A DNA stretch of 63,692 nucleotides from Actinomycetes bacterium (GCA_023251915.1 JAHEXW010000007.1:1-63692); one strand, 5' to 3'; counted from the stretch's first letter, positions 24,431 through 60,912 are shown. Notes: generated by a model not told the origin, from the sequence alone. Translations and numbers: made by a program.

Positions 24431-24469
24431 TTTGTAAATTTTACAAAGGAAGGTGCCGATACATATAAT
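24431..24469 (+). promoter_or_regulatory. Putative promoter and operator of the exosortase operon: dyad TTTGTAAA-T-TTTACAAA (24431-24447) overlapping -35 TTTACA (24440-24445), N18, -10 TATAAT (24464-24469)
   Basis: Read directly from sequence; 11 nt from -10 box to ATG at 24481. Confidence 0.65.
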
Positions 24470-24480
24470 GAGGTGATTAT

Positions 24481-25167
24481 ATGACTCTTCATTGGCTGTT
24501 TCATAACTATCAACGAAGTCTTCTCGCGGTGCTCTACGAACACCCCCTAGAGGCCGTGTGTCTGAGCGAACTGGCGCGGCGAGCGGGCGTCGACCCCGGC
24601 AACACTAAACGTTATGTGGAGAAATTCGCTGATTGCGGCATCGTTAAGGTCGCCAAGAACGGACGTAAGACGACCATTGTGCCTGACCTGGGAAATCCCG
24701 AAACCAGAAAGATCTTTGAGTTATTCGAGCTAGACCGGACAAGGAAGTTTTTGGAAAAGATTCATCCCCTCGCCGGTGACCGCGTTGACATCTTCCTGGC
24801 TGAGCTCTTGGCGTTGCTGCCCGATATCAGGTTGATCGCTCTGTACGGTCTGGAAGACAACGATATCGTGGTCACGAAACCGATCAACATCGCGGTCGTC
24901 GTCGGGTCGTTGCACGACACCGCCTTCGTCCACCATAAGATCCGGTCGCTCATCGACGCCGCCGGTTTTCGGCACGATTTCGAACTCTGCGTTTATACAA
25001 GCGACAATCTCGCCGCCGCGTGGAACAAGAGCGATTGCGGTTGCATAGGTTTCTGTAATGACAGGGTTGTTTTGTTCGGCGAAGGATATTACTGGCGGCT
25101 AGTTGACGGCCAGCTTCGTCAAGGGCAAACCGCAGACACCGAGGAGGAGATGGCTCAGAATGCCTAA
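24481..25167 (+). CDS. Winged-helix DNA-binding protein with degenerate MNT-type nucleotidyltransferase domain
   Basis: N-terminal wHTH (LSELARRAGVDPGNTKRYVEKFADCGIVKVAKNGRKTTIV); IRLIALYGLEDNDIVVTKPINIAVVV aligns with the MNT motif but lacks GS and DxD. Confidence 0.7.
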   Translation: MTLHWLFHNYQRSLLAVLYEHPLEAVCLSELARRAGVDPGNTKRYVEKFADCGIVKVAKNGRKTTIVPDLGNPETRKIFELFELDRTRKFLEKIHPLAGDRVDIFLAELLALLPDIRLIALYGLEDNDIVVTKPINIAVVVGSLHDTAFVHHKIRSLIDAAGFRHDFELCVYTSDNLAAAWNKSDCGCIGFCNDRVVLFGEGYYWRLVDGQLRQGQTADTEEEMAQNA

Positions 25168-25897
25168 ATCAATGATACTGCGCCGTAAATTAAGGACCGT
25201 CGGCCTGATAATGGCTTTGTCTTGCGTCGGCGTTCTGCTGTTCGGCGCCACCGCGCTGGCCGACACCGCCTATTTTGTAAACAACAGCTCGGAGTCCGGT
25301 TTGTTCGTCAACGCGCTCAACGATACCGTGTCGGGATCGACTTTGGAGTATTCGATCCTAAACATGACCCCGGGGCAAATCTCCTACTTCGGATCGCCGA
25401 ACGCGACTTCGTATTCCAAGGTCTACCCGAGCGGCAACGGGGTGGCGGCCGGAAATTGGACGCTTAACGCCTGGGGTCGGTCGCTTAACGCGTCCAAGGT
25501 ACTCTTCTCCGCGGAGATCGGTGAATACACAAGCACGGGTCAGTACATTGTTAAGATCCCCTACGGCGATCTGCCGACCGGTTTCGGCTGGACGCCCGAA
25601 TTTAAGGGAAGCGGCTTAACAGTGAACAGCGTTACCAAAACGGGGGCGCCGGCTTTCACGATCGGAGCGGGCAGCCGGGTCTACGTGAGGATATACGCCA
25701 AGAATACACACTCATCGCAGAACCGTGATGCCTTTCTGGCTTATAACTCGACCACAAATAACTCGAATCTATCTACTCCGCCGTTCGCCCAGCCCATACC
25801 GGCCCTTGGCTGGTACCTGGTTTTGGCCGGCATTGTTGTTTTCTCGTTCTTCGCTGTCGGGCGGGGTGTGTTGAAAGTGAGAAGGGATGAAGCTTGA
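25160..25897 (+). CDS. Secreted protein with C-terminal exosortase-type sorting tail (candidate sole substrate)
   Basis: Signal peptide (LRTVGLIMALSCVGVLLFGATALA); C-terminus PIPALGWYLVLAGIVVFSFFAVGRGVLKVRRDEA = short Pro-containing motif, TM helix, Arg/Lys cluster. Start moved to ATG 25160. Confidence 0.8.
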   Translation: MPKSMILRRKLRTVGLIMALSCVGVLLFGATALADTAYFVNNSSESGLFVNALNDTVSGSTLEYSILNMTPGQISYFGSPNATSYSKVYPSGNGVAAGNWTLNAWGRSLNASKVLFSAEIGEYTSTGQYIVKIPYGDLPTGFGWTPEFKGSGLTVNSVTKTGAPAFTIGAGSRVYVRIYAKNTHSSQNRDAFLAYNSTTNNSNLSTPPFAQPIPALGWYLVLAGIVVFSFFAVGRGVLKVRRDEA

Positions 25898-26493
25898 CTC
25901 AGGTCGGTACCATTCTACTAAGTATTTTAGCGATGGCCGCCTACCTGATCGGCGTGATCTATTTTCGACGGCGCCGGGCTTGGCTGGGATATTACCTGTT
26001 CGCGACGGTCGGGTTAACGCTCATCTTGGTTTTCGGAGCCCAGTTGACCGGCTTGTCCGGCAAGATCGAATATCTGGTCACTTGGCTGACAGCCCGCGCC
26101 TCCACGCTGTTCGGTATCCAGGCGCAATTCCTCGGCCAAAACGAATTGATGGTCTCGGACAAGGCTGGCTGGGTCATCTTGCGGACCACGATCGAGTGCT
26201 CGGCGTTGATCGAAACCAGCGTGCTGATCGCCTTGGTCGCGTTCTATCCGGCCTTCAAGTGGACCAAAAAGGTCGTGATCTTATTTTTCGGGCTGCCGAT
26301 AACCTGGCTGTCCAACATCGTCAGATTGTTGATAATCACGGGAATGACCGCGTTCTTCGGCCGGCAAGCCGTGTTTTTCGGACACGCGATCGTGGGCCGG
26401 TTCTTTTTCTTGGTGGTAACAGTCGCCCTGTACTGGTACATCCTGACCATCCCGACAGTAAAACACATCGGGAAATCTCTGGAACAAGGATAG
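25894..26493 (+). CDS. Exosortase/archaeosortase family protein (XrtG-like)
   Basis: Polytopic; conserved Cys (TTIECSALIETSVLI), Arg (LSNIVRLLIITG) and His (FFGHAIVGRFFF) in the family order. Confidence 0.87.
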   Translation: MTQVGTILLSILAMAAYLIGVIYFRRRRAWLGYYLFATVGLTLILVFGAQLTGLSGKIEYLVTWLTARASTLFGIQAQFLGQNELMVSDKAGWVILRTTIECSALIETSVLIALVAFYPAFKWTKKVVILFFGLPITWLSNIVRLLIITGMTAFFGRQAVFFGHAIVGRFFFLVVTVALYWYILTIPTVKHIGKSLEQG

Positions 26494-26506
26494 AGGCGAG
26501 GTTCTA

Positions 26507-28150
26507 ATGGACGGTTTATGGACGTTTATGCTGATCTGGGGTGTTTGGATCCTGCTGCCGATTCTGGTGGACGGGTCTGACACGCTGTTCCGCCTATTCG
26601 TCGTTTTAATCTGGGGCCGCAAGAAGACCCGGCCGACCGTCGCGGATGCCGAGCTACCGTTTGTTTCCATCCTGGTGCCTGCCTATAACGAAGAGCAAGT
26701 CATCGACCGCTGTTTGAACTCGATCAAACTACAGGACTACCCGCACGACAAGATGGAAGTCATTGTTATTAATGACGGTTCGAGCGACCTGACGGCGGAC
26801 AAGGTTCTGAGCCATATCGACGGCCGCGAAGTCGGCATGCGCGACCTTAACCAGCGCGATCCCAAAGGCCTGATGAGCGACGGCGGCGAGGTCCGTCGGG
26901 CCGTACCGCCGGGCGTCTATCGCAGCAAGGACATCGTCGTTGACGAGGAGTCCCGCCGTCCGAAACACGACGAGGCCCTTATGGAAGGTAAATACGTCGA
27001 CGTACCCGAATTCGGCGGCGAGATGACACTCATCAATAACCGCCACTACGGCAAACCGACCGCGTTGAACTCCGGCATTTCTCAGATGAACGGGAGTCAG
27101 ATAATTTTCACGGTCGACTCCGACGTCGTTCTGGACGCCGGCGCGGTGCGCAACATGGTCTACGCGTTTTTGGATGATCCCAAATTGGGCGCGGCGACCG
27201 GACATATCGAGATTTCCGAGGACATCGTGGAGGAGCGCGACGAATTGGGCAACCTTGTCTTAGACGACGAGGGCCACCTGATCCGCAAAAAGATGAACTT
27301 CATGCAAACCGCGCTGACCCGTCTCCAGTTCCTGGAGTATCTGGACGCGTTCCGGCTGGGCCGCCAGTTCCAGGCGACGATCGGGAGCGCCTATATCCTG
27401 GCGGGCGCGTTCTCCGCGTTCCGGCGCAGCACCCTCATGAAGACCGAACTTTATAAACCACGCACGGTCAGCGAGGACTTCGACCTGACCGTCGACATTC
27501 ATGAGACGGGCGAGAAGGTCGGCTACGTCGCCGAATCCAAGGCCTTGCTGGCGCCGGTCATCAACGTCAACAGCCTGTATTCCCAACGCGTGCGTTGGTG
27601 CCGCGGGCAGCTGGAAGTAGCCGGAGCGCACCAGAAAGTGATCGGCAATCGCCGTTACGGCATGGTCGGTTGGTTCGGTTTTCCGCAGATGTTGATCACC
27701 GATCACACACTAAGCTTTCCCAGGTTGATCTGGACGATTCTGATCGTTATGTTTCCCCTCTTCGGCTATCCGGTCAGCACGGTCACGCTGGCGCTGTTGT
27801 TCACCTACGCGTTTTATGTTGTGCTTAGCTTTATGCAGACCTTCGCCGCGTACGTGATTGTGGATGGGGAAACGAAGCGCAAGACGGAACGCGCCTTGGG
27901 TTGGTGCTTCGCTCTGCCGTTCTATCGCTTGGTAGTATTCTACTTCCGGATGTCCGGATACTTGCGGACCCTCACCGAACCTGCCGGTTGGGACATCGCG
28001 TCAAAAACTTTGGTTAACGCGAGCGCCAATGTCGACAGGCTGAAGGACGGCGCGGCCGGAATGCTCCGCACTTTCAAAAGAACCGCGCACGCCGGCGCCG
28101 GCATCATTCGCTCCGTCATGATGCTTCTCCTCTTATTCGTGCGGGACTAG
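26507..28150 (+). CDS. Membrane GT2 processive-type glycosyltransferase, exosortase-associated
   Basis: SILVPAYNEEQVIDRCLNSI, VINDGSSD, FTVDSDVVLD, SEDFDLT, QRVRWCRGQ; multiple TM segments. Confidence 0.88.
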   Translation: MDGLWTFMLIWGVWILLPILVDGSDTLFRLFVVLIWGRKKTRPTVADAELPFVSILVPAYNEEQVIDRCLNSIKLQDYPHDKMEVIVINDGSSDLTADKVLSHIDGREVGMRDLNQRDPKGLMSDGGEVRRAVPPGVYRSKDIVVDEESRRPKHDEALMEGKYVDVPEFGGEMTLINNRHYGKPTALNSGISQMNGSQIIFTVDSDVVLDAGAVRNMVYAFLDDPKLGAATGHIEISEDIVEERDELGNLVLDDEGHLIRKKMNFMQTALTRLQFLEYLDAFRLGRQFQATIGSAYILAGAFSAFRRSTLMKTELYKPRTVSEDFDLTVDIHETGEKVGYVAESKALLAPVINVNSLYSQRVRWCRGQLEVAGAHQKVIGNRRYGMVGWFGFPQMLITDHTLSFPRLIWTILIVMFPLFGYPVSTVTLALLFTYAFYVVLSFMQTFAAYVIVDGETKRKTERALGWCFALPFYRLVVFYFRMSGYLRTLTEPAGWDIASKTLVNASANVDRLKDGAAGMLRTFKRTAHAGAGIIRSVMMLLLLFVRD

Positions 28151-28154
28151 CGCG

Positions 28155-30698
28155 TTGGCACAGGCAGTCCCCGAACCCCTGCAACCGGCCAAGCCAGACG
28201 TCCGTAAGGGTTGGACTCTGTCTAGGTTTCTGCTGGGGTTGGCTTTCGTCTGGCTGGTTGTCTTTATCGTCTTTCGCCACGTTGCCGAGCCGGGGGTTCC
28301 CGCCGGCAACGACGCCATGGCTCATCTGTTTAAGATCTGGTACATCGGCCAGCACCTGGCGCAGACGCACACGTTTCCTGTGTGGCTGCCTTACTGGTAC
28401 GAAGGCACCGACTTATTCAAGTACTACCAGCCTTTGTTCTACCTCGTAGCAACGCCCTTCTATCTGATTACGAAGAATATTTTCGTCACCTACCGGATTG
28501 TCACTTTCGTTTGGATCGGCCTGGTCAGCCTGGCTATGTATGGCGTGGTATACCGGCGCCTCGGCCTGTTCCCGGCGATTATCGCCGCCATTCTTTATGC
28601 TCTATCACCCCCGGTGATCAGGGGCTATTTCTACGTCGGTCTGCTGCCGCAGGCGTTCTCGTACATCTTCCTGCCGCTGGCTTTCCATTTCACTCTGCGT
28701 TTGGCCGATGAAGGCGCCCAACGCGCCAAGACCGTCGCGCTCCTCGCCGTCTGTTGGGGTCTCTTTATCCTGGCCCATCCGATGAGCGCCGCTTTCTCGA
28801 TGATGGCCACATTTGTCTTTATCACCGTCTATCAGGCCACCAAACAAGAGGAACGGCACCCCTTGGTAATCACGCGCTATCTTTTGTCGGCGGCTCTGGG
28901 CATTGGCGTAGCCGCCCTCTGGTTTGTCCCGGCCTACTTCGGCAAGATAATGCCGCCGACTTCGGGCGAAGCGGTTTTCACTACTTCGGTTCCCCTAAAA
29001 GAACTGGCGGGGTTTGTCACCGGCGCCGCAACCACAAACGCCCGGTATATTCCGATTGCCTTATCCATCTTGGCGATCGCGGGGACATTCTGGCGCCGGA
29101 CCGCGCTCGCCTGGGGCTTAGCCGCCATGGGAGCGTTCACGATGATCTTCGCGCTCGGCGTGCAAACCCCGCTCTACAGTTTGGTTCCCTTATCGTCGGC
29201 CATCTTTCCTGAGTACGCTCTTTTTGGCGCTTGTTTCGCTTTCGCTTTTCTAGCGGGGCGTTTGTTTGAAAGAACCATTCGTAATTGGGCCAAAGACGTC
29301 GCGACCGTTGTTCTGATTGTCGCAGTTGTCTTCATCGCCCTGGTCGAAACACAACCTGTCTTCACGTCCATCGTTAACAAGCCTGCGCCGTCCGACATTA
29401 TCCGCTTGCTCGATAAGGCGAAGACCCTGCCCGCTGATGGACGGGTCTCGATGCTTGGCCATTCGTCCGCGGTTCTGTCCTACTATCCAACGGTCATTAC
29501 CGGCCGTCAGATAACCGAGGGCTTCTTCTACCAGGGCACGAACCATTACAAAGAGATCGCCAACATCAACGACGTCCAGATTCACGACTACGCGCCGGGA
29601 TACGTCCACCGGAAACTGGCGCAATGGAACACCCGCTACATCATGGTCCACACCGCGACACTGGCGCAGGACAAGGCTGTCATCCCACCGGGTTACAAAA
29701 AGGTCGCCACGGCTGAACTATGGAACCTTTTCTATCAAGATAAGGCCCGCTCAAGCTTTCAGATAATGACTCACGATTCGATAGCCATCGGCAAGAACCC
29801 AGCCGTAATCGCGCTCCGTTATCCCTGGATCGTCGAGGGCGGTCTATATGTCGACGACTACGACTGGAAGTATCTGTCCCAATTCAAACGAATCATCCTT
29901 AGCGGCTTCGCTTTCCATGATCGAAAGACAGCCGTCGACCTGATAACCCGGTTGGCCGAGAGCGGGCGTACGGTCGTTATCGATCTCCAGGACGTCGAGA
30001 GCGAGTTCGGCACGGAAAGCGTCTCATTCATGAATGTGTTGCCGATTCCGGTGACAACGCCGCGGCAAATCAGCCTGACGCCCGCCCGGCAATTGGCCGG
30101 CCTGCCGCAGCGGAAACTTAGTCTGCGGAATCTCGCCTATAACGGAGAGGCTTGGAAGGCGGTCGTCTATACAGGCCTTGACGCCAGCGCCTACGATGTA
30201 GCAATCAAAGGCAAAACCTATAGCGCGTTGGGATATAAGCGAGCCGGCGCCGGTAAGATATACTTCGCTGGCCTGAATCTGTTCTTTCATAATCTGCTGG
30301 CGCCCGATAGCGACGGAACCGCACTCACCGATTGGCTAGCCGGTCCGCCGGCCCCGAGTCTGTACATGGCCAATTTCCCGGTCACATCCCAAGCCTGGCG
30401 CGACGATTCGGTCAAGTTCGGTTATTCGTCGACAAAGTCGGCGCCGGTCGTCGTCTCCACGACCTGGACCGAAAACTGGCACGCGACAATCGACGGGAAA
30501 CCGCTTAAGGCCTACGCGTATGAAAACATGCCGTTATTCTTCCTGCCCGCCGGCACGCATGCGGTTGAGATGAATTACGGCACGACGGGATTGGAGATTT
30601 TTGCTACGCTTATCACCGTTGCGTCGGTCGCAATCGTCCTGTTCATCTTGATTAGGAGTGTGCGCCGTAAAAACAGCGCTAGTGATACCGGCATATAA
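28155..30698 (+). CDS. Polytopic membrane protein, 6-pyruvoyl-tetrahydropterin-synthase-related (PF10131-like, GT-C-like)
   Basis: VPAGNDAMAHLFKIWYIGQHLAQTHTFPVWLPYWYEGTDLFKYYQPLFYLVATPFYLI resembles the PTPS_related signature; TTG start. Confidence 0.75.
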   Translation: MAQAVPEPLQPAKPDVRKGWTLSRFLLGLAFVWLVVFIVFRHVAEPGVPAGNDAMAHLFKIWYIGQHLAQTHTFPVWLPYWYEGTDLFKYYQPLFYLVATPFYLITKNIFVTYRIVTFVWIGLVSLAMYGVVYRRLGLFPAIIAAILYALSPPVIRGYFYVGLLPQAFSYIFLPLAFHFTLRLADEGAQRAKTVALLAVCWGLFILAHPMSAAFSMMATFVFITVYQATKQEERHPLVITRYLLSAALGIGVAALWFVPAYFGKIMPPTSGEAVFTTSVPLKELAGFVTGAATTNARYIPIALSILAIAGTFWRRTALAWGLAAMGAFTMIFALGVQTPLYSLVPLSSAIFPEYALFGACFAFAFLAGRLFERTIRNWAKDVATVVLIVAVVFIALVETQPVFTSIVNKPAPSDIIRLLDKAKTLPADGRVSMLGHSSAVLSYYPTVITGRQITEGFFYQGTNHYKEIANINDVQIHDYAPGYVHRKLAQWNTRYIMVHTATLAQDKAVIPPGYKKVATAELWNLFYQDKARSSFQIMTHDSIAIGKNPAVIALRYPWIVEGGLYVDDYDWKYLSQFKRIILSGFAFHDRKTAVDLITRLAESGRTVVIDLQDVESEFGTESVSFMNVLPIPVTTPRQISLTPARQLAGLPQRKLSLRNLAYNGEAWKAVVYTGLDASAYDVAIKGKTYSALGYKRAGAGKIYFAGLNLFFHNLLAPDSDGTALTDWLAGPPAPSLYMANFPVTSQAWRDDSVKFGYSSTKSAPVVVSTTWTENWHATIDGKPLKAYAYENMPLFFLPAGTHAVEMNYGTTGLEIFATLITVASVAIVLFILIRSVRRKNSASDTGI

Positions 30699-31377
30699 CG
30701 AGAAGGAAAATATCGGACCGCTGCTTGACCGCGTCGGCAAGGTAATCCGGGATGCGGCCTTGGCTCTGGATGTCATCGTCGTCGACGACGGCTCGGCCGA
30801 CGAAACTGGTGCGATCGCAACGGGCAGGGCGGCGAAATACGGTAACGTCCGTGTTGTCACCCACGAGGTAAACCAAGGCTTCGCGGCAGCGCTCAAGACG
30901 GGTATCTCAACCGCTCTGGCCGGCGGGTACGACGCCGCAATCTTTATGGACTGTGATCAAACACACGACCCTGCCGATCTGCCGGCCTTTATCGCCGAAC
31001 TGGAACGGGGCACCGACCTGGTGATCGGTTCCCGCTACGTCGGGACGGGCGGTATGGTCGACGTTCCCTGGCACCGCGTCGCCGTCAGCGTGATCGGCAA
31101 CGGTTTTGGGAAGCTTGTCTTCCGGCTCCCGGTCCGTGACGCGTCCAGCGGATATCGCGCTCTTAGCCGCCAGGCTTTGGAATCAATCCATATCTCGGCC
31201 AATGATTTCAGCATTCAGGTCGAGGAAGTTTTGCGGGCCCGCCGGCTAGGTCTGACTTTTGCCGAGATACCGATAACACTGGTAAACCGCAAACTGGGGT
31301 CGTCTAAATTCAACCTGAACGCCGCCGCGTTGTGGCGTTATTTCGTGTTGATGCTTAGGAGTCTGACATGGCGCTAA
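30658..31377 (+). CDS. DPM1-like GT2 (polyprenyl-phosphate sugar transferase)
   Basis: TALVIPAYNEKENIGPLLDRVGKVI...VIVVDDGSADETG...IFMDCDQTHDPADLPAF...VIGSRYVGTGG. Confidence 0.9.
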   Translation: MCAVKTALVIPAYNEKENIGPLLDRVGKVIRDAALALDVIVVDDGSADETGAIATGRAAKYGNVRVVTHEVNQGFAAALKTGISTALAGGYDAAIFMDCDQTHDPADLPAFIAELERGTDLVIGSRYVGTGGMVDVPWHRVAVSVIGNGFGKLVFRLPVRDASSGYRALSRQALESIHISANDFSIQVEEVLRARRLGLTFAEIPITLVNRKLGSSKFNLNAAALWRYFVLMLRSLTWR

Positions 31378-32483
31378 AGGTTATGGCTGTCTTCGGTACC
31401 CGGCCGGAAGCAATAAAGCTGGCGCCGGTTATCGACGAGTTGAGGAAACGCGACGGCGTCGTGTGCAGCGTCGTGGTCACGGCGCAACATCGCGATATGA
31501 TCGACCAAGCGCTGAACATATTCTCCCTCGTACCCGACTCTGACCTTGACATTATGCGCCCCGACCAGACACTGGATGACATCGTCTGCCGTTCGCTGGC
31601 CGGTATCGCGCCCGTCTTAGAGGTCATGACGCCGGACGTCGTCCTGGTCCAAGGAGACACGACTAGCGCGATGGCAATGGCTTTGGCCGCCAGTCATCGC
31701 GGCATAACGGTCGGCCACGTGGAAGCCGGCTTGCGCACCTACGACAAGACTCAGCCTTTTCCGGAAGAAATGAACCGCCAACTGATCGGCCGCCTCGCCG
31801 ACCTCCATTTCGCCCCAACCGAAATCGCGCGAGATAATCTGCTGGGAGAAGGCGTATCTAAAGATCGGGTCTTCCTGACGGGCAACACGGTCGTCGACAC
31901 GCTGCTCCGGCTGTCAACGGAGATCAGAGAACCGGCGAATGAGGCGTTGCGGCAGGTTGATTTTGACAGCAAACGGGTCATTTTGGTGACGGCGCACCGG
32001 CGTGAGAATTTCGGGCCGCCGCTGGAACACATTGCGGCCGCCGTCCGGCAGATCGCGGAAGAAAACCCCGATGTCGAAATCGTTCTCCCGGTCCACCCAA
32101 ATCCGCGCGTCAGCGGGATTATCCAGCCGGCGCTGGCCCACGCGGAGCGCGTCCATTTGGTTTCGCCTCTAGACTACCCCGATTTGATCTGGGTCTTAGC
32201 CCGTTGCTACTTCGCGATGACGGATTCCGGCGGTATCCAAGAAGAGGCCCCGACCTTTAAAAAGCCCGTGCTGGTTATGCGAGAGAAGACTGAGCGACCC
32301 GAAGGTATCGAGGCCGGCGTTGCCAAACTCGTCGGGACAACCGTTTACCGCCTGGTCGGCGCAGCCTCCGACCTGCTTACTAACGACGAGGTCTACGCCA
32401 GCATGCGTGCCCGGAAGAACCCCTATGGCGACGGCCACGCCGCCTCACGCATCGCCGATATCCTGACGAAGTCAACGCTTTAG
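31368..32483 (+). CDS. wecB: UDP-N-acetylglucosamine 2-epimerase (non-hydrolysing)
   Basis: VMAVFGTRPEAIKLAPVIDELRKR, VQGDTTSAMAMALAASHRGI, GHVEAGLRTYDKTQPFPEEMNRQL, TDSGGIQEEAP. Confidence 0.96.
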   Translation: MALKVMAVFGTRPEAIKLAPVIDELRKRDGVVCSVVVTAQHRDMIDQALNIFSLVPDSDLDIMRPDQTLDDIVCRSLAGIAPVLEVMTPDVVLVQGDTTSAMAMALAASHRGITVGHVEAGLRTYDKTQPFPEEMNRQLIGRLADLHFAPTEIARDNLLGEGVSKDRVFLTGNTVVDTLLRLSTEIREPANEALRQVDFDSKRVILVTAHRRENFGPPLEHIAAAVRQIAEENPDVEIVLPVHPNPRVSGIIQPALAHAERVHLVSPLDYPDLIWVLARCYFAMTDSGGIQEEAPTFKKPVLVMREKTERPEGIEAGVAKLVGTTVYRLVGAASDLLTNDEVYASMRARKNPYGDGHAASRIADILTKSTL

Positions 32484-43902: not shown

Positions 43903-44853
43903 CTAAGGACGGTAGCCGTCTCCGGTGGGCGAGTAAACTGGTCCCTCTTGGACGCAGCTGCCGGGATACGGGGCGTGGATCTGCATGCCGCCGCCGATAT
44001 ATATGCCCACGTGGCCATAGCCGTGGCTGTAGACTAGATCGCCAGGCTCAAGTTGCTCCCAGCTAACATTGGGGGTGTAATCACAAGTGCGGTTGAGCGA
44101 AACCCCGATTTGCTGGTAGCAATACCAAACCAACCCGGAACAGTCGAAGCCTTCGTCGGGAGACGTCCCGCCATAAACATAAGGCACGCCGATAAGTGCT
44201 TCCGCTATCGCGACTACTCCCGATGACGCCGGCGGTAATGTCCCGCCCCAAACCGAAGGCGTGTCATTGCTGTTGTCGTCGACTCGGCTGGCGGCAGCCT
44301 GGGCTGCGGCTTGCTGTTCAATCTCGGACAAACGGGCTTTCTTGGCCTCGACCTGGTTTTCGATCGTTGCCTTGTCGGCCGCCACCTGATCAACCAGAGC
44401 CGCCTGACGCGACCGGGCCGCCTCCAGATCCGCTTTGGTCTTTTCCATATCCCGTTCGCTGGTTGTTATCGTTTTGACCAAGCTGGCGTCGGAGTTGCCG
44501 ACCCGGTTCAACAGGCTGAAACGGTCCGCGAAATCATTGATCGTCTGGCTGCCAAAGATGACTTCCAGCACGTTGACGTCTCCATATTTGTATAACCCTT
44601 TGACCCGAACCTCGAAGCTGGCACGAGCCGCGCTCAGGTCGGTCTGAGTGCGCTGTATTTCAGCCGCTTTCTGATCGATGGCAGCCTGAGTCTGGTTCAG
44701 ATCGGCGTTCGCCTGGTCGTAACGCGTGATGACATCGTTCAGCTGAGCATTGACCGCGCTGACTTCCTGCTGCGCGGCGGTCTGGTCATCGGCGGGATCA
44801 GCCAGCGCCGGAGCGGTCTGCATTACCAGAACCGCGGCGATGGAAATTGTCAT
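43903..44853 (-). CDS. Secreted NlpC/P60 endopeptidase with N-terminal coiled coil
   Basis: Signal peptide; coiled coil; IGVPYVYGGTSPDEGFDCSGLVWYCYQQIG...GDLVYSHGYGHVGIYIGGG. Confidence 0.92.
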   Translation of the reverse strand: MTISIAAVLVMQTAPALADPADDQTAAQQEVSAVNAQLNDVITRYDQANADLNQTQAAIDQKAAEIQRTQTDLSAARASFEVRVKGLYKYGDVNVLEVIFGSQTINDFADRFSLLNRVGNSDASLVKTITTSERDMEKTKADLEAARSRQAALVDQVAADKATIENQVEAKKARLSEIEQQAAAQAAASRVDDNSNDTPSVWGGTLPPASSGVVAIAEALIGVPYVYGGTSPDEGFDCSGLVWYCYQQIGVSLNRTCDYTPNVSWEQLEPGDLVYSHGYGHVGIYIGGGMQIHAPYPGSCVQEGPVYSPTGDGYRP

Positions 44854-44901
44854 TAAAATTATGCGAAATAGATTGCGATTCTTAATCGTTGCCCCCGTTT
44901 G

Positions 44902-45975
44902 TTAGAAGTAGCTGGCGTAGTCGCCGGCCGGAACGCCGTCGCCGTTGTCGATAAGCTCGAAATGCAGGTGGCCGAACCCTGACCCCGTAGTCGCGATATG
45001 ATCGCCGGCACCGACATACTGGCCCACGAAAGTCAAAGGATCGGAGTGGGCGTAGCAAGTCTCAAAACCCTCGCCTGACACAACCGTCCAGCCGCCCCGG
45101 CCATAGCCGATCTCGGTCACCGTACCGCTGTGGGCCGCATAGACCGGTACCCCGTCGCCGCACATTAGGTCGAACGCGTCGCCGCCCAACCAGACGCCGT
45201 GTCCGGCTGGCCCGTGGTCGCTGTATTCCCCCGCACCCAGCGGGCCGCTGCCCTCGCCCCAATAGCCGGCCAGGCCCGGAATAACGTCATAAAGTTTCGC
45301 GCCACCCCGATGGGTGCCGGGCTGGGCGCGCCGTTTGGCGGCCGCGGCCGCTTCGGCGGCGTCCATGTTGGCGATATCAGTCAGAATACTGGCCAGCACA
45401 TTGGTCTTGTCGGTCAGCTGAGCGTCGATGGCATCCTTTTGGGCCGCCAGGTCGTCCGTCAGCTTCTGCGCGTCTTTCTTCTGCGCCGCCAGTTCTTTGG
45501 CCCGGCCCTCGACCTCTTTCTTCTGGGCTTCTACTTGGGTAACAATACCGGCGTCGCGATCGCCGACGCGGGTCAGCAGATCAAGCTGCTGAACGAAATC
45601 GCCCAGGCTCTTGGAGTTAAAGATGACCTCCAGAGAAGATACGCTGCCGCGCTTATAGATGCCGATGGCGCGCTTGTCCAAAATGTTGGAGGCCTTAACC
45701 AGCTCGCCAACCTTTTGTTCTAGGGCCTGCTGGTTTTGATCGACGGAAGCGTTCAGCTCGTCCAGCTTGGCGGAGGCATCACTGTATTGTTGAACCTTCT
45801 CCGCTAGTTGGACGTTTAGGGTATTAATATCATTTTGTACGCCTTGCGCTGCCGCGTTGCTGGCGTCCCTGTCGGCCAGGGCCCCACTCGGCAAAGACAA
45901 GACCGTAAGAAGGGAAATGGCCACAACGGCCATCATTTTTAGCACTACTATTCGTCTATGTTGAATAATCATCAA
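44902..45975 (-). CDS. Secreted M23 peptidase-like protein with N-terminal coiled coil
   Basis: Signal peptide; coiled coil; GVPVYAAHSGTVTEIGYGRGGWTVVSGEGFETCYAHSD...GSGFGHLHFEL. Confidence 0.88.
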   Translation of the reverse strand: MMIIQHRRIVVLKMMAVVAISLLTVLSLPSGALADRDASNAAAQGVQNDINTLNVQLAEKVQQYSDASAKLDELNASVDQNQQALEQKVGELVKASNILDKRAIGIYKRGSVSSLEVIFNSKSLGDFVQQLDLLTRVGDRDAGIVTQVEAQKKEVEGRAKELAAQKKDAQKLTDDLAAQKDAIDAQLTDKTNVLASILTDIANMDAAEAAAAAKRRAQPGTHRGGAKLYDVIPGLAGYWGEGSGPLGAGEYSDHGPAGHGVWLGGDAFDLMCGDGVPVYAAHSGTVTEIGYGRGGWTVVSGEGFETCYAHSDPLTFVGQYVGAGDHIATTGSGFGHLHFELIDNGDGVPAGDYASYF

Positions 45976-46076
45976 CCCCTGAAATAAGTTGACTCTCAGG
46001 GTTATAACGATAGCACAGAATCGTCGGGTGCCGCAACTTGGCGAGCGCTTAGCAAAGTTGATTACGGCAGCTCAGA

Positions 46077-47093
46077 CTAGTCTTCCCAGTACCGACTGAG
46101 GGCGGTGACGACCGCCGCGGCGCATGCCTCGGTCGCGCCCGGCCGCGCCATCATCTCCGCATCGCGCGGGTCTGATTCGACGGCCGGCTTAACGATCACC
46201 GCCGGCATGCGTGTCGCTTGCAGGATGGCCAGGTTCTTGCCCTCGACGCCGTTGTCGAACAAGCGGAGGGCGGCGGATATCTCGTTTTGAATCAGGCTGG
46301 CGAGGGTCTTTGACCTTGCGGAAAAGAATTCGCCGTTGTCAAAGAACTCACAGACCGAGCCTCTTACGCCGGGTTCTTCCGAAACGGCGGTCTCGAATCG
46401 CAGCAGGACGTCGGCTTCCGCCTCGTTGGCCAGGGCGGCTAGCTCCCGCTCGTCTGAGCCGGGCGAAGTTTCGGGCAATTGCAGGGCCTTGGCGCCTTCG
46501 GCTGCTAGAAGGGTGACTAGATTAGCCGCGATGCCGCTGGAAAAGTCGTCCGCCGCGTGGTCGACGGCGATCCGTCGCTCCAGCAACGCGCCGGCCGGCT
46601 GCATTACGGCGCGGTCCCAAACTCCGGTGATACCGCCCGAGCTGACCCGCATCTTAAAGTTGTCCAGGGCCTGTACGGTCGTCTCACCGACGATACCATC
46701 GGCGTCCAAGCCAACGTTGCGTTGAAAATCGCGCACCGCGTTGTTCGTCTGCTCTCCTAAGACTCCGCTCACCCGGCCGGCGTTGAAGCCGACGTTGTTT
46801 AGGGTCGCCTGGAGTTCACGAACGTCGTCGCCGCGCAGAGGCGGTTCCATAAGATAGAGTTGGCGGTCGCCTAACTTATAACTGGCGTCGACCATCTCTC
46901 GCCACGTGTCCGGCCCGACGATGCCGTCCGGTTCCCGTTCTCGTTTCTCTTGGAACAGCCGGACCGCGCGTTCGGTTTCCGGCCCAAAGGCGCCGTCCAC
47001 TCCGGTCAAGCCGAGTTCATATCCCAGCCGCAGCAGGCGCGTCTGGACGTCTACGACTCCGCGTCCCTGCGAACCGATTTTCAACCAGATCAA
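46077..47093 (-). CDS. CwlM-like protein: two PG_binding_1 domains plus degenerate Amidase_3-like domain
   Basis: QTRLLRLGYELGLTGVDGAFGPETERAVRLFQ and ELQATLNNVGFNAGRVSGVLGEQTNNAVRDFQ; no signal peptide; DPGHGG/E/IHAN motifs not recognisable. Confidence 0.75.
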   Translation of the reverse strand: MIWLKIGSQGRGVVDVQTRLLRLGYELGLTGVDGAFGPETERAVRLFQEKREREPDGIVGPDTWREMVDASYKLGDRQLYLMEPPLRGDDVRELQATLNNVGFNAGRVSGVLGEQTNNAVRDFQRNVGLDADGIVGETTVQALDNFKMRVSSGGITGVWDRAVMQPAGALLERRIAVDHAADDFSSGIAANLVTLLAAEGAKALQLPETSPGSDERELAALANEAEADVLLRFETAVSEEPGVRGSVCEFFDNGEFFSARSKTLASLIQNEISAALRLFDNGVEGKNLAILQATRMPAVIVKPAVESDPRDAEMMARPGATEACAAAVVTALSRYWED

Positions 47094-52999: not shown

Positions 53000-53878
53000 T
53001 CAGAACCAGTTCGGAAAGAACCGGGTGAAAGCGGACAGATTCGTGATTGTGGCGGGTTGAGCGATGACTTGCGCCATCGAGGCGATAAAGCCGGCGGCCG
53101 GCAGAAAAACGAACTGGGCCAGAATCGTTCCGATGATCTTGCCGGCGACCAAATACCACACCATGACCTGGACGTCGTGCTCGGTCCGTTCGCCCGCGAT
53201 GGCTTGGTCGGTTATCAAGGCGATGATTGGATCAACGAGTATGATCAGCAGGAATGTCGCGATAACGTTGACGATGCCGCTCAAGTTATCGGCTGTCAGC
53301 CGGTGGTCGGGGATGAGCGCGCCAGAGTAGATAGTCGACAGAACACCGGTCGTGTAGATGGCGACGACGATGACGTTGGCAATCAAGAATCCCTTGGGAA
53401 TGTTGGACTTAACATGTTCTTCCGGCCGTTTAAACTGCGGAGCCCGCACCGATTCCAGCAAAACCCGGTAACTGCGGCCGCGGAACAACCGTTTAAAAAG
53501 CTTAAATACCGACGCTTCCCGCTCAAATATCGTCAGGACGCGCGTGAAGATACGGACGAAAGTCGGCACCAATAATGCCCCGATGACGCTGCCTACCGTC
53601 GCGGCTAGGATTATCCAGCGGAACTGTCCGGACAATGTAGCGAGCACGGATGCCGGGACCTGGTGGGCATAGCCGAGCATCGCCCGGTCAACCAGGCTGC
53701 CCGTCAGAGGAGCCTGAATCGTATTGGCGAAGCGCGAAAACAGCAGCAACATATTGAAGAGGGTTAACGCGATGCCTAGCTTGCGAACGCGAACCGCCGA
53801 AATCCGGCTGCTGTAGTAGAGTGCGTCGATGCTGTGGATGACCGCGGTGAAGATGCAGACAATGGCCAGACGAATCAA
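53000..53878 (-). CDS. amj: Lipid II flippase Amj-family (DUF2837) membrane protein
   Basis: VCIFTAVIHSIDALYYSSRISAVRVRKLGIALTLFNMLLLFSRFANTIQAPLTGSLVD resembles Amj/YdaH N-terminus. Confidence 0.75.
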   Translation of the reverse strand: MIRLAIVCIFTAVIHSIDALYYSSRISAVRVRKLGIALTLFNMLLLFSRFANTIQAPLTGSLVDRAMLGYAHQVPASVLATLSGQFRWIILAATVGSVIGALLVPTFVRIFTRVLTIFEREASVFKLFKRLFRGRSYRVLLESVRAPQFKRPEEHVKSNIPKGFLIANVIVVAIYTTGVLSTIYSGALIPDHRLTADNLSGIVNVIATFLLIILVDPIIALITDQAIAGERTEHDVQVMVWYLVAGKIIGTILAQFVFLPAAGFIASMAQVIAQPATITNLSAFTRFFPNWF

Positions 53879-59249: not shown

Positions 59250-60482
59250 TTAGTTCACGTACCGGGAATGCGGCGTCGCGCCCTTGATTGGCCGGGTGTG
59301 GCAGATCTGGCACGAGTTCGCACCGATCGCCGTTGGCGCCGACTGCAGGCTGTTCGGCTGAACGTTATCGATCGCGCGCTTGGACGGCCACCAGACGTGC
59401 GGGCTGTTGTGACACCCGGCGCAGTATACGCCATCCGGACCTTTGGTATCTCTATACAATCCGCCTTTTACGGTGTGGCTGTCGCCGTGGCATTGCTCGC
59501 ACGTCGGCTCGTCCAACCAGGGACGCCGACCGGTCGCAATCGTCGCAGCGACATTTGCCAGGTCTCCGTGACAGCTCGGACAACTGGGGTCGTCCCCGGT
59601 GGCGGAACCCATCCCGCTTATCGCCGTGCGCAGACACTGTGTGTTCTGGCCCGGGTGGCAATCATAACAGCCCGGCACGTCGCCCATTATCCGGGAATGC
59701 TTGCCGTGCATGGCTTCCGACAATGACTTCTGAACGCCGTTGCCGGGTTTCCCTAGGGCGTTGGAGCCGTGACAGTTGGCGCACAACACCGGTTTTTGTG
59801 ACGACAGCGTCGTCCCGCTGATCTTGTCGTGAATCGCCAGGATGTTGCCTTCCACCGTGCCCGTGTTTATGCCGTAAGCCAGGGAGGCGTCCGCGTCGCC
59901 GGCGTGGCATTTGGCGCAGTTCAGCTCGTCCGACACGGGAACAACAATCCTTGAGGTCTGGATCACCTTGCCGCCCTTGTCTTTCAAGACGACGGCAGCG
60001 ACCTGATACGGGTTCCACCTCATCTTGTCATCCAGCGGCAAGAGCGGGATGCCCGTCGCCTCATAATGATCCCCGTTCAGCTTCATCACGCCCTTCAGAC
60101 CGTTGCCGGTCAGGCCGACGCCGATGGGGAGATTGACCCCAAACAGCTGGTTGGCATACTGCCAAAAATCTGTCTTGCCGACCACGGTCGTGTTCTTTTC
60201 AATTGAATATTCCAGCGTTATGCCCGAAGTCACAACGCTGACCGGAGCGCCCCGCCGCAATACCTGAACCATCAGCGTGTTAAAGGGTGGCAGGATGCAA
60301 ATCTCGCTGAAACTAGGGTCGAGGCAATGCATGCCCAGCGAATTCCAACCCAACACGACGTACGGGGAGGGCGCCGGATTGTTGTCGGCGCGGGCTGCCG
60401 GCCGAAGCGCGAAGAAAGAAACCGTAAGCGCCGCGATCATGATGACCGAGATGATTACGCTGTAAGTGTAGATTTTCTTCAT
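59250..60482 (-). CDS. Secreted multiheme c-type cytochrome, 7 CxxCH motifs
   Basis: CAKCH, CANCH, CYDCH, CPSCH, CEQCH, CAGCH, CQICH; signal peptide; start moved to ATG 60482. Confidence 0.9.
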   Translation of the reverse strand: MKKIYTYSVIISVIMIAALTVSFFALRPAARADNNPAPSPYVVLGWNSLGMHCLDPSFSEICILPPFNTLMVQVLRRGAPVSVVTSGITLEYSIEKNTTVVGKTDFWQYANQLFGVNLPIGVGLTGNGLKGVMKLNGDHYEATGIPLLPLDDKMRWNPYQVAAVVLKDKGGKVIQTSRIVVPVSDELNCAKCHAGDADASLAYGINTGTVEGNILAIHDKISGTTLSSQKPVLCANCHGSNALGKPGNGVQKSLSEAMHGKHSRIMGDVPGCYDCHPGQNTQCLRTAISGMGSATGDDPSCPSCHGDLANVAATIATGRRPWLDEPTCEQCHGDSHTVKGGLYRDTKGPDGVYCAGCHNSPHVWWPSKRAIDNVQPNSLQSAPTAIGANSCQICHTRPIKGATPHSRYVN

Positions 60483-60507
60483 AATCGTCTCCTTGGTAGG
60501 CGGTTGC

Positions 60508-60912
60508 CTAGGTCGTTTCTTCCATGGCTGACATCGCTTTCTTCTGGCGCTCTTCCATCGGCGTAAAGCCTTGCATAATCCCGAACTTGTTGCCTTCGCT
60601 GTCCTCGCAATACCGGAACAGCCCGACATTCATGATCTCTTGTTTGTCCGTCAGCGTCTTGCCGCCGGCGGTAACAACAGCCTTGGAAATCTCATCAAGA
60701 TCATTGACCTCCATGGTCAGGATTACCTGAGCCTGTTCACCCGCCATGATAGCGCCGTTGATGCCAGGTTCTTTGTCCGGACCCGTGGTCGCCAGCCAGT
60801 AATCGTCGGGACCTTCCCAGGTGCTGATGTCCCAGCCAAAAACGTTCTGATAGAAAGTGACCGCTCGTGATGGTGTGGCGGCCGCTATCTCAAAATGAAC
60901 AACCCGTCCCAT
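60508..60912 (-). CDS. VOC/glyoxalase-family protein
   Basis: VVHFEIAAATPSRAVTFYQNVFGWDIS...VILTMEVNDLDEISKAVVTAGGKTL...FRYCEDSEGNKFGIMQ. Confidence 0.93.
   Translation of the reverse strand: MGRVVHFEIAAATPSRAVTFYQNVFGWDISTWEGPDDYWLATTGPDKEPGINGAIMAGEQAQVILTMEVNDLDEISKAVVTAGGKTLTDKQEIMNVGLFRYCEDSEGNKFGIMQGFTPMEERQKKAMSAMEETT

Follow-up and report, generated by a model that had tools for sequence, protein, structure and literature searches.

The stretch analysed here, referred to as the window, comprises 63,692 nt from an uncultured Actinomycetes bacterium (GCA_023251915.1, JAHEXW010000007.1:1-63692), and ORF calling places seven open reading frames (ORFs) head to tail on the plus strand between positions 24481 and 32483, among neighbours that are mostly minus-strand housekeeping genes. 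The cluster is an exosortase operon in which a single secreted protein is accompanied by its presumptive processing enzyme and by several glycosyltransferases, and its junctions range from a 41-base overlap to a 13-base gap. The features of the locus are the following:

24431..24447, unstranded: palindrome, proposed operator, TTTGTAAA-T-TTTACAAA, core TGTA-N5-TACA
24440..24469, plus: sigma-70-like promoter TTTACA-18-TATAAT, 11/12 consensus matches
24481..25167, plus: putative winged helix-turn-helix (HTH) regulator, 228 amino acids, HTH matches weak and below cut-offs
25160..25897 (inside ORF 25103-25897), plus: secreted substrate, 245 amino acids, with signal peptide, PIPALGW motif, transmembrane (TM) segment and basic tail
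25894..26493, plus: XrtG-like exosortase, 199 amino acids, TIGR04178 and PF09721, Cys102-Arg144-His164
26507..28150, plus: membrane GT2 glycosyltransferase (GT2a), PF00535, TIGR03111 as best model
28155..30698, plus: PF10131 (PTPS_related) membrane protein, 847 amino acids, probable GT-C
30658..31377, plus: DPM-synthase-like GT2 (GT2b), PF00535, similar to PDB 5mlz
31368..32483, plus: WecB, UDP-GlcNAc 2-epimerase, TIGR00236

All seven ORFs are retained in unchanged order, at 80-95% amino-acid identity, in a second genome of the same genus (G001; JANXYU010000003.1, 'Actinobacteria bacterium'), and a base-by-base comparison of five of the genes locates 63-78% of the differences at third codon positions. 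Given this conserved order and third-position bias the ORFs can be considered real genes, and the cluster is a real, coherent operon, in agreement with the tightly packed plus-strand genes, at these coordinates in a mostly minus-strand window, that had been described in the initial annotation.

The product of 25894-26493 belongs to the exosortase/archaeosortase superfamily. In hidden Markov model (HMM) searches it scores 49.7 bits against TIGR04178 (cut-off 23) and 38.0 bits against PF09721 (cut-off 25.7), and the failure of exosortase models that had been put forward as a possible refutation did not occur. The anticipated Cys-Arg-His triad is also present: an alignment shows Cys102, Arg144 and His164 to be invariant in six Actinomycetota relatives, and the triad is aligned in three XrtG proteins of the Bacillota too. 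The best single model for this exosortase is that of XrtG, TIGR03110 (81.3 bits, under the cut-off of 102.75), with far lower scores for other exosortase models, and exosortases from five Actinomycetota families score 72-95 bits against it, every one under the cut-off, as compared with 193.6 bits for a genuine XrtG. A tree of 16 exosortases places the Actinomycetota group on its own branch beside XrtG, with modest support (85/82), and splits both from other Actinomycetota exosortases at 99/97; on this phylogeny, the group is the sister group of the XrtG of the Bacillota. A PDB search with the exosortase profile returned no match. Since the cut-offs of both TIGR03110 and TIGR03111 are missed, we regard the window protein as an XrtG relative and not as XrtG by the curated definition. 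The proposal of an XrtG-like system in a non-Firmicute (non-Bacillota) lineage is thus correct as to the best models, the core gene order and the lineage, the only named relative being an Actinobacteria metagenome-assembled genome, but not as to the curated cut-offs. The system would work like XrtG while falling outside that definition.

The comparison set for the Bacillota consisted of the plasmid-borne XrtG loci of Lactococcus, Aneurinibacillus and Eubacterium eligens, which encode a secreted-type protein, XrtG, a TIGR03111 glycosyltransferase and a 6-carboxytetrahydropterin synthase, the E. eligens locus carrying a PF10131 protein in addition. In two of the three (L. lactis and E. eligens) the secreted protein bears a Firmicu-CTERM tail (TIGR04145 match), and in L. 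plantarum a Firmicu-CTERM protein has been reported with XrtG and two associated glycosyltransferases (PMC12854382). The order substrate-xrt-GT2-membrane glycosyltransferase is common to the Actinomycetota loci and the Bacillota XrtG loci. The layout is therefore not new, because Bacillota loci already place a dedicated substrate next to xrtG together with GT2 and a membrane protein (PMC12854382), and the suggestion of a possibly undescribed combination has to be abandoned. In addition, the initial annotation had merged two families by equating TIGR03112 with the PTPS_related-like membrane protein: TIGR03112 is a small, soluble family of 113 positions, distinct from PF10131, and no TIGR03112/PTPS gene was found in the operon, the sole match in the window's own genome (G000) being sub-cut-off and on another contig (G000:C34).

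The substrate gene combines an N-terminal signal peptide with a Ser/Thr/Asn-rich body, which harbors 10 N-X-S/T sites, and with a C-terminus made up of the PIPALGW motif (P-I-P-A-L-G at 25793), a TM segment and the basic tail KVRRDEA, its end reading ...PIPALGWYLVLAGIVVFSFFAVGRGVLKVRRDEA; all elements predicted for the secreted protein are hence in place. Five relatives encode, immediately upstream of the exosortase gene, a protein whose C-terminal end carries IPALG, IPTLG or VPILG ahead of a TM segment and, usually, basic residues. The substrates of G002 and G233 are homologous along their length (32% identity), and those of the window and G002 are unrelated. A fixed position and an [IV]PxLG tail on a changing body constitute the pattern expected of a sorting signal. 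A search with a profile of this tail identified one strong match per genome in 6/6 genomes, always in the exosortase-adjacent ORF, in line with the single adjacent substrate anticipated for the operon; one substrate per system is supported, not proven, by these matches. The Firmicu-CTERM model (TIGR04145), which matches the L. lactis and E. eligens controls, finds none of the Actinomycetota substrates, and a PDB search with the substrate gave chance matches only. A statistically weak N-terminal 'ITIDGNFxDW', common to the substrates of G244 and G255 and to those of the Bacillota, is suggestive. An xLGY tail is seen again in G286 (L018:6830-9117), in a secreted protein ending ...STSILGYMAIMAGGSILIWQRRYKSRGLV near a different exosortase, with a cytochrome-like gene between the two.

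Downstream of the exosortase, GT2a has TIGR03111 as its best model (269.6 bits; next best PgaC, 122), which bears out its assignment as a TIGR03111-type GT2 except that the score falls short of the cut-off of 363.95; the GT2 proteins of relatives reach 256 and 272, compared with 615 for that of E. eligens. Alignment shows that GT2a keeps the DSD (DxD) and QRVRW (QxxRW) motifs and has an extra cytoplasmic insert, and the HMM search finds a resemblance to NodC. The next protein is PTPS_related-like as annotated (PF10131, 216 bits; cut-off 26.4) and matches YfhO weakly. The proteins encoded at the equivalent position in G002 and G244 start with PMT_2, a GT-C glycosyltransferase domain, the PF10131 C-terminus forming their other end, and a G-x-D in the first extracellular loop is invariant in 6/6 aligned proteins from this position. 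Judging from these features it is probably a GT-C glycosyltransferase; a PDB sequence-profile search with it yielded no match. GT2b, designated DPM1-like, is similar over its whole length (residues 3-238) to dolichol monophosphate mannose synthase (PDB 5mlz, E=2.9e-25), contains a DxD motif and matches the AglJ and PpgS models, and it probably makes a polyprenyl-phosphate sugar.

The identification of the last gene as wecB is confirmed by TIGR00236 (472 bits; cut-off 210), and its presence points to N-acetylmannosamine (ManNAc) as the sugar. It is, however, the sole match in G000, as it is in G001, and since no other WecB was found in the genome it is probably not dedicated to the exosortase system. 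The view of a ManNAc epimerase as a dedicated extension is accordingly not upheld, the gene also lying outside the conserved core. Orthologous WecB genes are missing from the operons of G002, which has a distant WecB (33%) some 7-8 kb downstream of the exosortase, and of G244, whose WecB lies on another contig and in which an NAD-dependent epimerase/dehydratase follows the DPM-like gene; hence, sugar supply appears to be variable. Downstream of the G002 cluster (L006:16111-19001), the distant WecB is accompanied by a Gfo/Idh oxidoreductase and by an aminotransferase-like start; as read from the sequence, this set is reminiscent of a Wbp-type pathway for diacetamido-uronic acid sugars. A gene for a B12-binding radical SAM protein (L015:10042-11520) separates the GT-C gene of G233 from its DPM-like GT2.

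The first gene of the operon had been described as a winged HTH/nucleotidyltransferase (NTase) regulator. Weak winged-helix matches, below cut-offs, agree with the former half of this description, but the HMM search produced no NTase domain match. G001 and G002 show good conservation of the N-terminal half of the protein; the G233 and G244 loci lack the gene. Upstream of it, the palindrome covers the -35 element of the region's best promoter candidate. Its TGTA-N5-TACA core occurs once in the window, with 0.2 occurrences expected, and TGTAAATNNTACA is present in one copy in the window's genome, one in G001 and two in G002, with one copy just upstream of the regulator gene in each of them; in G002 a second TGTA-N5-TACA copy is located 21 bases further on. 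Autoregulation from this candidate operator is the simplest reading of such an arrangement.

Across the Actinomycetota, the order substrate-exosortase-GT2 is found in 6/6 loci and a GT-C gene follows GT2 in all five whose contig continues, a DPM-like gene coming next in some families only. The scattering in relatives that had been named as a possible objection to the seven-gene unit is therefore partial: five of the seven keep their association and relative order, in contrast to DPM and WecB. The exosortase cluster is present in 3/3 genomes of the window's order and in 3/36 genomes of another class (excluding two weak, distant exosortase matches), and no XrtG-like exosortase of this group was detected in the rest of the 397 Actinomycetota sampled. 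YchF borders the cluster or lies near it in G000, G001, G002 and G244, and a glutamate-synthase-like (NADPH-GOGAT-like)/FNR pair adjoins it in G000 and G001, with a position just beyond it in G233. Because these flanking genes are shared across families, an old residence in the Actinomycetota, with losses, is favoured over recent transfer.

Taken together, the gene families, catalytic residues, conserved order, tail signal and operator conservation seen in these sequences make it fairly probable, in our judgement, that the operon encodes a one-substrate exosortase system of XrtG type, of a deep Actinomycetota lineage, with a glycosyltransferase-built anchor or decoration. From them we infer substrate cleavage, the nature of anchor and sugar and repression by the regulator along the following lines. 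The substrate would be exported by Sec and stay membrane-bound through its C-terminal TM segment, and the exosortase would cut it at or near [IV]P-x-L-G through the Cys-Arg-His triad. As in the transpeptidation onto a membrane amine modelled for archaeosortase A (PMC7157517), the new C-terminus might then be transferred to an amine-bearing membrane (glyco)lipid anchor. GT2b would make a polyprenyl-phosphate sugar for use outside the cell by the GT-C protein, as suggested by the GT2 and GT-C extracellular glycosylation of CsbB/GtcA/YfhO described in PMC7389260 and PMC8035078, and GT2a may make a further lipid-linked or polymeric glycan, the glycosyltransferases jointly building the anchor or decorating the Ser/Thr/Asn-rich substrate. 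WecB would supply UDP-ManNAc to the cell and probably also to the exosortase pathway, and the regulator would repress its own operon from the palindrome over the promoter.

Several observations weigh against this interpretation. The tail profile was built from the very sequences it recovers, and divergent substrates would escape it; with a profile made without the window and G001, the window substrate takes first place among 630 ORFs, albeit at no better than E=0.072, which indicates that its tail signal is divergent. The completeness of G000 is 92.6%. AlphaFold models of the substrate and of the PF10131 protein, each from two sequences, were unusable (mean pLDDT, the predicted local distance difference test, of 45 and 32, respectively). 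The G002 operon lacks the DPM-like gene, a longer DPM-like GT2 lying downstream on the opposite strand, and WecB, as the sole genome copy, may serve the whole envelope. We are doubtful of the more ambitious version, in which a self-contained, self-regulated and vertically inherited exosortase, deep in the Actinomycetota and distinct from XrtG, would conjugate one surface protein to a dedicated, operon-built and possibly ManNAc-containing glycolipid.

The variation of the DPM/WecB end between relatives, together with the single WecB copy, may also be read as two units on one transcript, namely an exosortase-substrate pair and unrelated general envelope glycosylation genes (DPM-GT2, WecB) for other wall polymers. 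We give this explanation roughly one chance in four, for throughout the Actinomycetota loci GT2a and GT-C remain neighbours of the exosortase, as does GT2a in the Bacillota, joined in E. eligens by PF10131; these two at least belong to the system. A somewhat less probable alternative is that the glycosyltransferases make a surface polysaccharide and that the exosortase attaches or co-exports an unglycosylated protein with the polymer, as proposed for PEP-CTERM exosortases, which are located in exopolysaccharide (EPS) loci and link protein to polymer (PMC12188702). The processive nature of GT2a, PgaC/NodC-like and related to PgaC and cellulose synthase with DxD and QxxRW kept, fits such a role, but the operon contains no Wzx/Wzy or export genes, the presence of GT-C and DPM-like enzymes points to transfer of single sugars and the organism is probably monoderm. 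Finally, the identical core order and the two best models, TIGR03110 and TIGR03111, could denote a true XrtG system recently acquired from the Bacillota. This we hold to be very improbable: TIGR03110 scores are under the cut-off in all five Actinomycetota families scored, the group has its own (modestly supported) branch, YchF and the NADPH-GOGAT-like/FNR pair flank it across families, pointing to long residence, and the operon has neither TIGR03112 nor Firmicu-CTERM.

As far as we could find, no identification of the acceptor joined by bacterial exosortases has appeared in the literature, and a compact operon with one substrate, one exosortase and few glycosyltransferases makes this question testable with few genes. 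According to the Actinomycetota group, the core of the XrtG layout comprises substrate, exosortase, TIGR03111-type GT2 and usually a GT-C type membrane protein, with PTPS, DPM synthase, WecB and regulator as optional parts. Elsewhere in the window, three consecutive peptidoglycan hydrolases (43903-47093; NlpC/P60, M23 and an amidase with PG-binding repeats) are consistent with a monoderm wall, 53000-53878 encodes an Amj (alternate to MurJ) lipid II flippase (PF10997, 296 bits), and 59250-60629 encodes, in this Actinomycetota genome, a secreted protein that has seven CxxCH haem motifs and matches to multihaem cytochromes, one of these being MtrC/MtrF-like.

Among known systems, PEP-CTERM/exosortase (EpsH) and IPTL-type systems share the tripartite C-terminal signal of Pro motif, TM segment and basic tail and the association with glycan genes, but other exosortase models score far lower on the window protein, and these systems usually have many substrates per exosortase and reside in Gram-negative EPS loci (PMC12188702). 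Archaeosortase A/PGF-CTERM likewise involves, in the proposed model (PMC7157517), a Cys enzyme of the membrane that links the C-terminus of a protein to lipid; it is, however, an archaeal and distinct family for which no glycosyltransferase operon has been described. The CsbB-GtcA-YfhO system pairs a GT2 making a lipid-linked sugar with an extracellular GT-C, recalling the weak YfhO match of the PF10131 protein, but modifies teichoic acids and has no exosortase; no GtcA-like flippase was found in the window operon. The closest parallel is the XrtG/Firmicu-CTERM system of the Bacillota (TIGR03110, TIGR03111, TIGR03112, TIGR03766, TIGR04145), with which the window shares one substrate directly upstream of the exosortase, a TIGR03111-type GT2 after it and then (in E. 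eligens) a PF10131 membrane protein, the same catalytic residues and the nearest exosortase group in the tree. Unlike XrtG systems, the window carries an [IV]PxLG tail in place of Firmicu-CTERM, lacks a PTPS gene in its cluster and has an extra insert in GT2a, and its operon adds a DPM-like GT2, WecB and a linked regulator. Its core combination is not new, and the Actinomycetota operon is a diverged actinobacterial version of the little-studied XrtG system known from the Bacillota.

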